From: Gammaproteobacteria bacterium
GTDB taxonomy: Bacteria > Pseudomonadota > Gammaproteobacteria > Steroidobacterales > PWYM01
Length of the DNA: 64,000 bases
Direction: 5' to 3'
Assembly: GCA_007693855.1 (NCBI GenBank)
Contig: RECU01000077.1
Coordinates: 1 to 64,000 of the forward strand
Below the pieces are notes generated by a model, which saw only the letters and a list, made by a program, of their open reading frames with translations, made no database searches and had not been told where the DNA came from. How positions within the stretch are numbered: position 1 is the first letter of the stretch; each line of letters opens with the position of its first letter. Both the position numbers and the translations under genes were made by a program. Below, piece by piece: positions 4,000-10,629 of the stretch.

Positions 4000-4093
4000 A
4001 GTCCAATCGGGTGCGATCTCATGCGCTCGCACAATGGAGGAGATGCGGTGGCTCCGGAGGGCCGCCGTGCCAGGGGTGTCTTCGGGGGAGCAT

Positions 4094-6034
<1,941 letters not shown>

Positions 6035-6071
6035 GGCTGCTGGCGCCTTGCCGGGTCCACAGTTCGCCCTG

Positions 6072-6554
6072 ATGACAGATCTACGCGCCGGCCTTGCCGT
6101 TTCCGTACTGCTGGTGGCGGCCTGCAGCAGGGGCCCCGAGGTGCCGGCCGCAAGCGGATTCTTCATCGATCCCGAAGACCTGCGACTGGTCACGCTGGGG
6201 GAGCCGATCTATTTCGAGCACTGCGCCAGTTGCCACGGCGCTGCCCTGGAAGGGGAACCCGACTGGCGGCGGCGTCGGCCGGACGGCCGCCTGCCGGCCC
6301 CGCCGCACGATGCCTCCGGGCACACCTGGCATCACCCTGACTGGGAGCTGTTCGCGATGACCGCCCAAGGGGTCACGCCGCTGGCGCCACCGGACTACGA
6401 AACCGACATGCCCGCCTATCGCGGCATCCTCACGGACGAGGAGATCGTGGCCGTGCTGGCCTGGATCAAGGCCCAGTGGCCGCCCGAGATCGCGGCGATT
6501 CAGCAGGGGATCAATGCCCGCTCCGAGCCACCGCCGGGACTTGAGTGGCGCTGA
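6072..6554 (+). CDS. Mono-heme cytochrome c, probable lipoprotein
   Basis: A 160-residue exported c-type cytochrome. The start at 6072 gives the signal MTDLRAGLAVSVLLVAAC, ending in an LVAAC lipobox, so it is probably lipid-anchored on the periplasmic side. The heme site CASCH follows FEHCASCHGAAL at about residues 53-57. A Met in ETDMPAYRGILTDEEIVAVLAWIK is the likely axial ligand in the usual class I position. It would be matured by the Ccm system at 22-28.7 kb. It lies 37 bases downstream of acs on the same strand. Its redox partner is not identifiable. Confidence 0.85.
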   Translation: MTDLRAGLAVSVLLVAACSRGPEVPAASGFFIDPEDLRLVTLGEPIYFEHCASCHGAALEGEPDWRRRRPDGRLPAPPHDASGHTWHHPDWELFAMTAQGVTPLAPPDYETDMPAYRGILTDEEIVAVLAWIKAQWPPEIAAIQQGINARSEPPPGLEWR

Positions 6555-6584: not shown

Positions 6585-7706
6585 TCAATAGCCGCGCTCC
6601 AGATCGACGACCGAGAGCATGGGCTCGCCCTCGAGATAGCGGCGCAGGTTGGCGCGCACCACCTCCCAGCGCACGGCAAATCCCAGCTCCGAGCGGGCGG
6701 CGACATGCGGCGTGATGAGGGTGTTCGGGGCCCGCCAGAGCGGATGGCCGGACGGTAGCGGCGAGGGCTCGGTCACGTCGATGCCGGCGCCGCCGATCAG
6801 CCCCTCTTCGAGTGCGGCGACGAGATCTGCCGTGACGACAGTCCCGCCCCGGCCGACGTTGATGAACAGGGCGTGCGCGGGCATCGCCTCGAACATTGCG
6901 CGATCGAACTGGCCCTCGGTCTCGGGCGTCAGCGGCAGCGCGTTGACCACGACATCGGCCTCGGCGAGCTCGGCGGCCAGGCCCTCGGGCAGCACGACGC
7001 GGGCGACGAACTCCGGTCCCTCCGGCCGACTCGCGCGCACCGCGTGGACTTCCATGCCGAAGGCATGCGCGCGGCGTGCGACCTCGATACCGATACCGCC
7101 GAGCCCGACCACGAGCAGCCGCCGACCCTCCAGCGACATCGGCCCACGCGGTGCCGGCGCCTCGCGGTCCCAGCGTTCCGCGTCCTGGGCGCGCTGATAG
7201 TCGGGGAGGGCGCGGGCCAGCGCCAGGGTGAGTGCCATGACGTGCTCGGCAATCACCGGGCCGGTGACGCGCTGCATGTTGGTCAGCAGCGGCTGGCGCG
7301 CCTGCATGGCAGGCAGATCGACACAGCTCTCGACGCCGGCAACCAGCACCTGCACCCACACCAGGTCGACGCCGCGCTCCAGCAACTCCTCGCTGCAGAA
7401 GCCGATCAGCGCATCGGCATCGGTCACCTGCTCGAGTGCCTCGGCGGCGTTCCGGGCGCCGACGATGTGGACGTCAGCTGGCAGGCCCTGCCGCAGCCAG
7501 TCCAGGCGCCCAGGCTCCATGTCGGCGACCACGATCTTGCGCAGCGCGCGCCAGTCTGCACGCTCGCGAACCGGCGCTTGCGCCTCGGCCAGCGCATGAC
7601 GCTCGATCAGGGCCACTTCGTCGGCGGGTGCCGCCGTTGCTGGCCCAGCCAGCAAGGCGAGCACGAGGGCCAGCGGCCATCCCGTATTGAACAGTGCAGT
7701 GTGCAT
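6585..7706 (-). CDS. D-isomer specific 2-hydroxyacid dehydrogenase with an N-terminal signal sequence
   Basis: A 373-residue member of the D-2-hydroxyacid dehydrogenase family, which normally reduces 2-oxoacids with NAD(P)H. The Rossmann motif VVGLGGIGIEVARR is intact, and the strand after it ends HAVRAS, where Arg in place of Asp suggests NADP preference. The catalytic triad is present: Arg in NVGRGG, Glu in GIDVTEPSPLP and His in TPHVAA. The first about 26 residues (FNTGWPLALVLALLAGPATAAPA) look like a cleavable signal peptide. I chose the ATG at 7706 because GGAGA lies 7 bases upstream; an ATG at 7718 is also in frame. Export of a nicotinamide enzyme is odd. It follows the exported unknown gene by 20 bases. 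Confidence 0.82.
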   Translation of the reverse strand: MHTALFNTGWPLALVLALLAGPATAAPADEVALIERHALAEAQAPVRERADWRALRKIVVADMEPGRLDWLRQGLPADVHIVGARNAAEALEQVTDADALIGFCSEELLERGVDLVWVQVLVAGVESCVDLPAMQARQPLLTNMQRVTGPVIAEHVMALTLALARALPDYQRAQDAERWDREAPAPRGPMSLEGRRLLVVGLGGIGIEVARRAHAFGMEVHAVRASRPEGPEFVARVVLPEGLAAELAEADVVVNALPLTPETEGQFDRAMFEAMPAHALFINVGRGGTVVTADLVAALEEGLIGGAGIDVTEPSPLPSGHPLWRAPNTLITPHVAARSELGFAVRWEVVRANLRRYLEGEPMLSVVDLERGY

Positions 7707-7726
7707 ATCGTTCTCCATCGCTGGGA

Positions 7727-8323
7727 CTAGTCGTGCCCCCAGGGCGCAGGCGGTGCCTCGATGGTCTCGGACAGGTCGAAGGTGAAGGCGATGATGTAGC
7801 CATCGAGACTGGTCGTGCCATAGGTGTAGCGTTGGCCGGGTTCATGGATGATCCGCCAGCCGCGGAATTCACCCGCCTCTTCAGTGCGCGGCATGGACTG
7901 GAACAGCTGCTCCGTCGCTGTGCCCTCGCCAACGCTGAAGCCACCATACATGGTGTTCGCGCTGTCGCTGCCATCCACCCGGCGGTGGTCGTGACGTAAT
8001 TCGAGGCCATCTTCGTGCAAGGTCAGGATCCAGGTTCGCGAGCGATTCCACGAGCCGTCGGTCTCGTCTTCGATGTGCAGTGGAATCTCGAGCCGGGTCT
8101 CGTCGCACCGGCGAAAATGCATCTGCATTTCTTCCGTTCCGGAGAAAAGCTCGACGAAGTCGGGTTTTTTCAGCAGCGCGCCGGTGTAGGCATTGCCGCA
8201 CTTGGCCGCCAGCTGCTGGAAGAACTCGACGAAAGCGGGTGGCGCCGTCTCGGCGCGGACGCTGGCCGGCACCAGGGCAACAGCCAGCAGCAGCAATAGC
8301 GGGGAGAAGGGTTTTCTGTGCAT
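7727..8323 (-). CDS. Exported protein of unknown function
   Basis: A 198-residue protein I do not recognise. The start at 8323 (GAGGA Shine-Dalgarno) gives a clear signal peptide, KPFSPLLLLLAVALVPASVRA, with predicted cleavage near residue 24. The mature part has two cysteines (residues 42 and 73) that could form a disulfide, and alternates hydrophobic strands with polar turns (RTWILTLHEDGLELRHDHR; TSLDGYIIAFTFDLSETI), suggesting a beta-rich soluble periplasmic domain. It sits 20 bases upstream of the exported dehydrogenase on the same strand, so the two are probably one transcription unit. Confidence 0.75.
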   Translation of the reverse strand: MHRKPFSPLLLLLAVALVPASVRAETAPPAFVEFFQQLAAKCGNAYTGALLKKPDFVELFSGTEEMQMHFRRCDETRLEIPLHIEDETDGSWNRSRTWILTLHEDGLELRHDHRRVDGSDSANTMYGGFSVGEGTATEQLFQSMPRTEEAGEFRGWRIIHEPGQRYTYGTTSLDGYIIAFTFDLSETIEAPPAPWGHD

Positions 8324-8556: not shown

Positions 8557-10629
8557 ATGCCGCAAGACCGTCATGCCCCCCTGTCGAAGTCTCCGGTCCG
8601 TTCGACCATTCTGCTGCCGGTATTCATTCCCGCCGTGCTGATCACGCTGTTCCTGGTGGTTGGGGCGATGAGCAATCCGACGCTGGCCGGTCAGGCGTTC
8701 GCCAGCACTCTGGCCTACATCACCGAGACGTTCGGCTGGTTCTACATGCTGGCGGTGGCGTTTTTCCTGGTGTTTGTGGTGGCTATCGCGATTTCGCCCT
8801 GGGGCCAGGTGAAACTCGGGCCAGATCATGCCGCCCCGCAGTACAGCTTTCCTGCGTGGTTCGCCATGCTGTTCTCGGCCGGATACGGCATCGCCTTGCT
8901 GTTTTTCGGCGTGGCCGAACCGGTGCTGCACTACGCGAGCCCGCCTGCCGGGGCACCGGAAACGCTGGATGCCGCCAAGCAGGCGATGCAGATCGCGTTT
9001 TTCCACTGGGGGTTCCATATCTGGGCGATTTACGGCTTGACCGGGCTGGTGCTGGCCTATTTCGCCTTCCGCCACGGACTGCCCCTGTCGATGCGCTCGG
9101 CGCTCTATCCGCTCGTCGGTGAGCGCATCTATGGGCCGATCGGCCACACCGTGGATGTGGTGGCCATCCTCAGCACCCTGTTTGGCATTTCCACCACCCT
9201 GGGCCTGTCGGTGGCGCAGATCAACGCCGGCGTGAACTACCTGCTGCCGGCGGTGCCCGTGAGCACGTCGTTCCAGGTGGCTGCGATTGCGGTGATCACG
9301 GTCATGGCCACGGTGTCGGTGGTCGCGGGTCTGGACAAGGGGATCAAGCGGCTGTCCATTCTGAACATGCTGCTGGTGGTCTCGCTGATGGCCTTTGTGT
9401 TCGTGGTCGGGCCGAGCATCCTGATTCTGGAAGCCTTCGTACAGAACACGGGGGCTTACCTGAGCAATATCGTCGAGCGTACATTCAACCTGCAGGCCTA
9501 TGAGCGCAGCGACTGGATTGGCAACTGGACGCTGTTCATCTTCGGCTGGACCATTGCCTGGGCACCGTTTGTCGGGCTGTTCATCGCCAAGATCAGCCGC
9601 GGACGCACCATCCGCCAGTTCGTGTTTGGCGTGATGCTGGTGCCGACGCTGTTTACCTTTCTGTGGTTCTCGATCTTCGGCGATACCGCGCTGAACATGA
9701 TCATGGTCGAGGGCTACACCGCGCTCATTCAGGAAGTGCAGGCGGACAACGCGGTGGCCCTGTTCAGGCTCTTCGACCGGCTACCCTGGTCTGGCCTGGT
9801 CTCGTTCATTACGGTGATCCTGATCATCACCTTCTTCGTGACCTCGTCGGACTCGGGCTCGCTGGTGGTCGATTCGCTGGCCTCAGGGGGACATCCGAAC
9901 CCGCCGACCTGGCAGCGGGTGTTCTGGGCGACGGTGGAGGGCCTGGTAGCCTCGGCGCTGCTGATCGGTGGCGGGCTGTCCGCGCTGCAGACGATGAGCA
10001 TCACCAGCGCACTGCCCTTTGCGATCGTCCTGGTGATTGCCGCCATCGGTCTCTGGCGAGCGCTGATCATCGAAGGCCATCGCGAGGTCAGTCTGCAGGC
10101 CTATATGCAGAACAGCCAACGGGCGGCCTACAGGAAACCCGGGGGCTGGAAGAAGCGCCTGTCCGGGATGGTGGATTACCCTCCAGAGGAGAAGGTGCGC
10201 AGCTTCATCGTTCGGGTGGTGCAGCCGGCCATGGAGCATGTAGTGGCGGAACTGCGGGACAAGAACTGGCCGGCGACGCTGCACCGGGACGATGAGCACT
10301 GCCGTACCTGGCTCGAGGTGATCAAGGCCGACGACATCGACTTTACCTACGAGATCCGCCTGCGCGGATACGCCAAACCTGGGTTTGCCTATCCGGAGAT
10401 GGCCCGCGACCCGGACGGAGACGAGCTCTACTATCGCGCGGAAGTCTTCCTCAAGCACGGGGGCCAGGCGTACGACATTTACGGTTACGAGGAGCAGGAT
10501 GTCATCGACGATATCCTCAATCAGCTGGAGAACCATCTGCATTTTCTGCATATCTCTCCGGCCACCCTGCCGTGGAAGCTCGAGCAGCATGATGAGATGC
10601 TCAACGGCGAGGGTATCCAGCGCGGCTGA
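8557..10629 (+). CDS. betT: BCCT-family betaine/choline transporter, BetT-like
   Basis: A 690-residue secondary transporter for choline or glycine betaine across the inner membrane. It has the BCCT pattern of twelve hydrophobic segments, including MLFSAGYGIALLFFGVAEP and FFHWGFHIWAIYGLTG, then WTIAWAPFVGLFIAKISRGRT, the signature helix region with its tryptophans. After the last helix a cytoplasmic tail of about 170 residues follows, matching the osmosensory C-terminal domain of BetT and unlike the short tail of BetP-type relatives. No bet oxidation genes are adjacent, so the substrate (choline versus betaine) is inferred from length and tail only. Confidence 0.88.
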   Translation: MPQDRHAPLSKSPVRSTILLPVFIPAVLITLFLVVGAMSNPTLAGQAFASTLAYITETFGWFYMLAVAFFLVFVVAIAISPWGQVKLGPDHAAPQYSFPAWFAMLFSAGYGIALLFFGVAEPVLHYASPPAGAPETLDAAKQAMQIAFFHWGFHIWAIYGLTGLVLAYFAFRHGLPLSMRSALYPLVGERIYGPIGHTVDVVAILSTLFGISTTLGLSVAQINAGVNYLLPAVPVSTSFQVAAIAVITVMATVSVVAGLDKGIKRLSILNMLLVVSLMAFVFVVGPSILILEAFVQNTGAYLSNIVERTFNLQAYERSDWIGNWTLFIFGWTIAWAPFVGLFIAKISRGRTIRQFVFGVMLVPTLFTFLWFSIFGDTALNMIMVEGYTALIQEVQADNAVALFRLFDRLPWSGLVSFITVILIITFFVTSSDSGSLVVDSLASGGHPNPPTWQRVFWATVEGLVASALLIGGGLSALQTMSITSALPFAIVLVIAAIGLWRALIIEGHREVSLQAYMQNSQRAAYRKPGGWKKRLSGMVDYPPEEKVRSFIVRVVQPAMEHVVAELRDKNWPATLHRDDEHCRTWLEVIKADDIDFTYEIRLRGYAKPGFAYPEMARDPDGDELYYRAEVFLKHGGQAYDIYGYEEQDVIDDILNQLENHLHFLHISPATLPWKLEQHDEMLNGEGIQRG

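Follow-up and report, generated by a model that had tools for sequence, protein, structure and literature searches.

Dehydrogenases that depend on nicotinamide are believed to require the cofactor pool of the cytosol, and glucose-fructose oxidoreductase (GFOR) recycles its bound NADP(H) in place by oxidising one substrate and reducing another in turn. Signal-bearing exported oxidoreductases are exemplified by Zm GFOR and Cc aldose-aldose oxidoreductase (AAOR), which are described as having Tat signals (excerpts of PMC4628093). Such signals permit loading before export. Among the D-2-hydroxyacid dehydrogenases, the active site of the D2HDH of Haloferax mediterranei consists of Arg226, Glu255, His274 and a glycine, and the side chains of Arg165 and Ser167 bind the 2'-phosphate of NADP (excerpts of PMC12328707). 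According to excerpts of PMC6303947, the triad glutamate stabilises the protonated histidine, most formate dehydrogenases carry Gln at its site, and half of the archaeal subfamily X4 has lost the glutamate together with the histidine. The words 'signal peptide', 'periplasm' and 'secreted' do not occur in that paper, and an open-access literature search, judged mostly from listings, returned no paper describing a 2HADH clade that is exported; a D-2-hydroxyacid dehydrogenase is listed among the released Asaia proteins without a predicted secretion system (excerpts of PMC12502724).

The locus described here lies in a 64,000-nucleotide stretch of gammaproteobacterial DNA (contig RECU01000077.1), hereafter the window. 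Its dehydrogenase resembles the D2HDH of H. mediterranei (PDB 5mh5, with NADP+) in the fold, the GxGxxG motif, the active-site Arg, His and Gly and the residues for the NADP 2'-phosphate, and differs from it in having an export leader, an N-terminal arm, an invariant cysteine pair and Ser in place of Glu255. With GFOR and AAOR (Gfo/Idh/MocA) it shares the combination of an oxidoreductase with an export signal, but these belong to another family (no Pfam match to a Gfo/Idh/MocA domain was found in the window dehydrogenase at E <= 0.01) and have Tat leaders (excerpts of PMC4628093), whereas those of the window clade are Sec-like. NAD-dependent formate dehydrogenases, a 2HADH subfamily, have the same fold and a replaced triad glutamate (excerpts of PMC6303947); theirs is mostly Gln, in contrast to Ser, Arg or Thr here, and identity to their chains is about 22-26%. 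Relatives from Planctomycetota, Acidobacteriota and Verrucomicrobiota (e.g., L101, L119, L108) fall in the same wider clade and have leaders, which are partly lipobox-like, but they lack the cysteine pair and keep the glutamate. On balance, the best explanation, slightly more probable than not, is that the window protein belongs to a clade of D-2-hydroxyacid dehydrogenases that is exported by Sec and carries one disulphide, with altered acid-base chemistry in the window's lineage.

Dehydrogenase gene and fold

6585..7706, minus strand: D-2-hydroxyacid dehydrogenase-fold protein, predicted to be exported, 373 aa from ATG 7706 (alternative ATG 7718)
7542..7628, minus strand: N-terminal arm, residues 27-55, with a helix (2-11 in the AlphaFold2 model) and W52; block pLDDT 87-98

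The original prediction of a 2-hydroxyacid dehydrogenase was borne out, as a D-2-hydroxyacid dehydrogenase on the minus strand, by matches to PF02826 (E 8.6e-51, 172.3 bits against a gathering threshold of 25.1) and PF00389 (E 2e-5, 24.7 against 24.6 bits); PF02826 was also found in 53/53 rows of an alignment of relatives with the cysteine pair (A2). None of the NCBIfam equivalogs (GhrA, GhrB, PGDH, D2HDH and others) reached its cut-off, the best being NF041369 with 195.6 against 400 bits. ATG 7706, upstream of the hydrophobic segment, is the best start, and it was preferred over the ATG 7718 of the ORF list because GGAG, a ribosome-binding site, stands 6 nt before it. The same signal speaks against a start downstream of the hydrophobic segment, a doubt that the original prediction had itself raised.

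An AlphaFold2 model built on the dehydrogenase sequence together with those of 52 relatives (mean pLDDT 95.1, pTM 0.90) predicts the two-domain fold of the D-2-hydroxyacid dehydrogenase family, with 5mh5 as the closest PDB chain (Z 32.7, rmsd 2.3, 301 aligned residues, 34% identity). The PDB alignments begin at model residue 25 or later, and the N-terminal arm, except for its last residues, lies mostly beyond the aligned range of the 50 PDB chains listed. By descent and fold the protein is a member of the family, and it is not a canonical triad enzyme.

Relatives and the cysteine pair

7395..7397, minus strand: Cys104, predicted disulphide partner of Cys128, invariant in the order relatives
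7323..7325, minus strand: Cys128, predicted disulphide partner of Cys104, invariant in the order relatives

Close relatives of the dehydrogenase were found in 19 of the 59 genomes searched, at 20 places with E <= 5.0e-79 (the next match was at 2.7e-43), and one place from each of the 19 genomes (L001-L019) entered the alignment of order relatives. A broader sample gave a match at E <= 1e-58 in 5/274 genomes of the class, and the clade is therefore scattered, not universal. A scan of named genomes, of which the best 80 of 547 relatives were kept, extended the collection to 99 loci, from which the duplicates L051, L058, L062 and L090 and the fragments L118 and L128 were removed to leave 93 rows; L051 was compared with L004 letter by letter, and the other three duplicates were recognised by identical N-termini.

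Both cysteines are invariant in 19/19 order relatives, a set not selected for cysteines; the A2 alignment (53 rows) was selected for the pair and gives no evidence of its invariance. Across the 93 rows, 67 have both cysteines, 4 have C104 alone, none has C128 alone and 22 have neither. In 59 of the 67 Cys-pair rows they are the sole mature cysteines. The pair arose once on the tree, in one clade (SH-aLRT 99, quick search), and because of this single origin its Fisher value is not phylogenetically independent. A disulphide is the natural reading of such an invariant pair, and judging from this conservation C104 and C128 are probably bonded.

Pairwise Nei-Gojobori estimates of dN/dS among the five genus members were 0.10-0.41 for the mature part and 0.38-1.04 for the leader (one leader pair of ten was not computable), values that are rough with synonymous distances near saturation. 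The gene is maintained under purifying selection and is not decaying.

Loss of the triad glutamate

6849..6851, minus strand: catalytic Arg286, invariant
6762..6764, minus strand: Ser315 (codon TCG) replacing the triad glutamate, aligned to Glu255 of 5mh5
6705..6707, minus strand: catalytic His334, invariant

In the phmmer alignment to 5mh5, Arg226, Glu255 and His274 of D2HDH correspond to Arg286, Ser315 and His334. The active-site Gly124, Arg286 and His334 are all present in the window dehydrogenase, as is the GxGxxG motif, but the original statement that all catalytic residues are intact fails at the triad glutamate. The other four genomes of the genus (L002, L003, L004 and L005) have Ser, Ser, Arg and Thr at position 315, and the remaining 14 order relatives have Glu. 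Outside the genus, Glu315 is found in 60/62 Cys-pair rows, counts to be read with the named-genome scan in mind, where one of the two peptide patterns ends in DP[ESR], the triad-glutamate site, and the sample is not neutral there; the exceptions, L110 and L114, are long branches with uncertain alignment around position 315. Every row lacking the cysteine pair (26/26) has Glu315. At L114 (5857-8453) two exported-dehydrogenase homologues stand in tandem, and the copy examined has a strongly altered catalytic segment.

The tree needs four changes at the glutamate site. Methylohalomonas lacus, which has Glu, is placed between L005 and the other genus members, and this placement implies two losses, a regain or a transfer. 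The five genus members without the triad glutamate (5/5) also have Pro276 and His278 (about 6873-6881, minus strand); among the other Cys-pair rows K276 is found in 58/62 and H278 in 1/62. E313 was considered as a compensating stand-in for the lost glutamate and rejected, given that D/E313 is also found in nearly all relatives that keep Glu315; it may possibly have some role.

Loss of the glutamate with His and Arg kept is unusual but no proof of inactivity, and it could equally mean that catalysis was lost. A pseudoenzyme in the window's lineage, which would only bind a dinucleotide or a keto acid and serve for sensing, scavenging or scaffolding, is a fairly unlikely alternative that would account for the presence of Ser, Arg or Thr in place of Glu in each of the five genus members, for the further changes at 276 and 278 and for the persistence of purifying selection. 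Arg286, His334 and Gly124 are nevertheless still invariant, which would be unexpected had catalysis been abandoned, and most formate dehydrogenases function with Gln at this site (excerpts of PMC6303947). The case for a catalytically active window protein with altered acid-base chemistry falls a little short of evenly balanced.

Cofactor pocket and leader

7089..7106, minus strand: GLGGIG dinucleotide-binding motif, residues 201-206, invariant in 19/19 order relatives
7029..7037, minus strand: Arg224-x-Ser226, equivalents of D2HDH Arg165/Ser167 in the 5mh5 alignment, invariant in 19/19
7632..7706, minus strand: predicted Sec signal peptide, about residues 1-25 (MHTALFNTGWPLALVLALLAGPATA), from a hydrophobicity rule, relatives and cytosolic controls

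The conserved pocket residues indicate that a putative NADP(H)-type site is kept while the triad glutamate is lost, and from them we infer that the exported dehydrogenase binds NADP(H).

The N-terminus has a short hydrophobic core followed by an A-x-A-like site. Leaders were compared in the window protein and 92 further non-redundant relatives, with 10 cytosolic paralogues as controls, by the best 12-residue hydrophobic mean across candidate starts (threshold 1.8). Under this home-made rule, which takes the best of several starts and favours finding a hydrophobic stretch, a leader was found in 67/67 Cys-pair rows (64 Sec-like, 3 matching a lipobox-like pattern) and in 21/26 rows without the pair (12 Sec-like, 9 lipobox-like), against 0/10 cytosolic paralogues, to which the same kind of rule was applied with a different anchor, so that the contrast is informative but not of SignalP grade. 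The twin-arginine pattern RR.[FLVIM] was found in 0/67 Cys-pair leaders, and Sec is for this reason preferred to Tat. Among the rows without the cysteine pair the pattern is present in three, of which L113 resembles a true Tat leader.

This L113 protein, from an Isosphaeraceae relative, begins with MNRRTFIAASAAAS... and differs in this from the Cys-pair clade, whose leaders are Sec-like. Nine leaders (L101, L103, L107, L111, L115, L116, L117, L121 and L122), mostly from Planctomycetota, read as lipobox-like, which suggests membrane-anchored lipoprotein dehydrogenases.

The export proposed in the original prediction is supported by the homologues, through the contrast in leaders and the invariant cysteines, and its signal peptide stands as a signal-like N-terminus with an A-x-A-like end, although 'strong' was slightly generous. 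The net charge of the n-region is 0 in the window leader and likewise in L002 and L003, and this want of net positive charge in the window protein and two genus relatives counts against export. Taking both sides of this comparison together, the dehydrogenase is very probably exported across the inner membrane.

An exported nicotinoprotein that holds NADP(H) tightly and recycles it in place, by alternately oxidising and reducing two substrates, would agree with an NADP-type pocket that is invariant in an exported-looking protein, and Zm GFOR and Cc AAOR offer precedents for signal-bearing oxidoreductases (excerpts of PMC4628093). It is nonetheless unlikely: those enzymes can be loaded before Tat export, a route that the original prediction had also suggested for a pre-bound cofactor and that finds no support in leaders lacking the twin-arginine pattern, and the loss of the glutamate fits poorly.

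The original prediction had further considered that the N-terminus might be a membrane anchor. If the hydrophobic segment stayed uncleaved, the enzyme would be held at the inner membrane, facing the periplasm. The shortness of the window leader and its weak n-region are compatible with such an anchor, which is improbable considering the A-x-A-like end, the short core and the fast evolution of the leader, and considering that certain more distant relatives have lipobox-like leaders instead.

Genomic neighborhood

7727..8323, minus strand: exported-looking protein of an unnamed family, 198 aa, 20 nt upstream of the dehydrogenase
6048-6554, plus strand: cytochrome c with a lipoprotein-like leader (PF00034)
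4034-6034: presumably an acetyl-CoA synthetase-like gene (acs), named from its sequence
8557-10629: presumably a BCCT-type transporter, named from its sequence

The operon partner had been said to carry a signal peptide as well, and an exported-looking neighbor does end 20 nt upstream of the dehydrogenase. An alignment of 10 homologues shows invariant C42/C73 and SRTW, LxHxH and YGG motifs. The protein has no Pfam or NCBIfam match, comparison of the family profile (A3) also gave no Pfam family, and no relative was found for this profile among solved structures (best E 0.95). A fold from single-sequence AlphaFold2 was discarded (pLDDT 46.5, nothing in Foldseek at E <= 0.001). The family is expanded in genome G003, at 7 places (L032, L044, L046, L047, L048, L049 and L050), and two of the G003 proteins carry two tandem copies of the domain.

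The pairing of the two genes is real in the window genome but not conserved. Partner homologues occur in 13/59 genomes and the exported dehydrogenase in 19/59, and only the five genus members have both. In G004 the acs, cytochrome and dehydrogenase genes follow the window's order, and the partner, transporter and CBS genes are absent before the next conserved gene; in G001 and G004 the partner homologues lie on contigs other than that of the dehydrogenase. In the stretch around the dehydrogenase in G001, G002 and G003, 0 of the window's other 13 tested genes were matched, with the G003 contig ending near the dehydrogenase gene and the G002 contig being 5.2 kb long. The two genes are a local arrangement, not a conserved pair. 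That they form a functional pair, as the shared strand, the 20 nt gap and the leaders and two mature cysteines in both could suggest, is quite improbable given the syntenic G004 without a partner, the separate contigs and the overlap limited to one genus.

No conserved neighbor indicating a substrate was found at 52 Cys-pair loci with flanks of up to 6 kb. The largest neighbor cluster comprises 10 of the 52 loci, a figure obtained with a greedy ORF caller that overlooks genes lying beneath long antisense ORFs (its cluster for the dehydrogenase itself reaches only 45/52 loci). The recurrent neighbors, an acyl-CoA dehydrogenase, a desaturase and a phosphatase, mostly reflect the shared synteny of Woeseiaceae-like genomes.

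At three loci an MFS protein weakly resembles ATP/ADP transporters (L063:4248-5582, L065:2065-3369 and L061:3717-4997), with genes that follow the dehydrogenase, immediately or after one intervening gene, in L063 and L065 and precede it in L061. These proteins match PF03219 (TLC ATP/ADP transporter) at E 1.3e-6 to 1.8e-5, two of them score better against PF07690 (MFS_1), TIGR00769 of NCBIfam stays far under its cut-off in two and L061 has no NCBIfam match; the sole PDB match of the L063 protein is an ADP,ATP carrier (E 0.0028). A dedicated NAD(P) or nucleotide transporter beside the gene was considered and rejected, PF03219 being found at E <= 1e-10 in 1/59 genomes (G006), outside the 19 with the dehydrogenase.

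Finally, a cytosolic enzyme translated from downstream of the hydrophobic segment, for which GTG at codons 31 and 59 and ATG at codon 63 offer in-frame starts, is very improbable in view of the GGAG ahead of ATG 7706, the leaders of all 67 relatives and the invariant cysteine pair, and a start at 59 or 63 would delete the arm with W52.

Discussion

The window protein combines an ordinary fold with an unusual place, if it is indeed exported, and an active-site change that the original prediction overlooked. If the window protein is indeed Sec-exported with a single disulphide, it would cross the inner membrane unfolded and then lose its leader, and the mature protein would fold outside the cytoplasm, where the C104-C128 disulphide would form. 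The NADP(H)-type dinucleotide pocket would be kept, and the protein would have to obtain its nicotinamide beyond the cytosol and retain it there. Most of the clade has the complete Arg/Glu/His triad and would work as a 2-keto/2-hydroxy acid oxidoreductase. The acid-base chemistry may be altered in the window's lineage, since the catalytic histidine has lost its supporting glutamate; reduction could be weakened, oxidation preferred or a step without proton transfer catalysed. Any assignment of substrate and reaction direction would be a guess.

One genus member, the G003 gene (L051), comes from the sample series T3Sed10, a name also found in a paper on the sediments of hypersaline soda lakes (excerpts of PMC6146748). 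Should the genus live at high pH, we suggest, the active site of an exported enzyme would face alkaline water and a glutamate that protonates the histidine would matter differently.

The interest of the clade lies in the cofactor. Sec-like leaders together with an invariant cysteine pair make the binding and use of NADP(H) in the periplasm directly testable, and they raise the question of how a protein exported unfolded obtains NADP(H). The repeated loss of the triad glutamate provides natural variants for testing the role of this residue. It is conceivable, if rather unlikely, that these proteins represent a so far undescribed but widespread class of NADP(H)-type oxidoreductases, exported by Sec and locked by a disulphide, which would take up nicotinamide nucleotides outside the cytosol and use them there, and which would have been rebuilt in the window's lineage to work without the triad glutamate; such a class, if real, would imply a periplasmic pool or supply of NADP(H).
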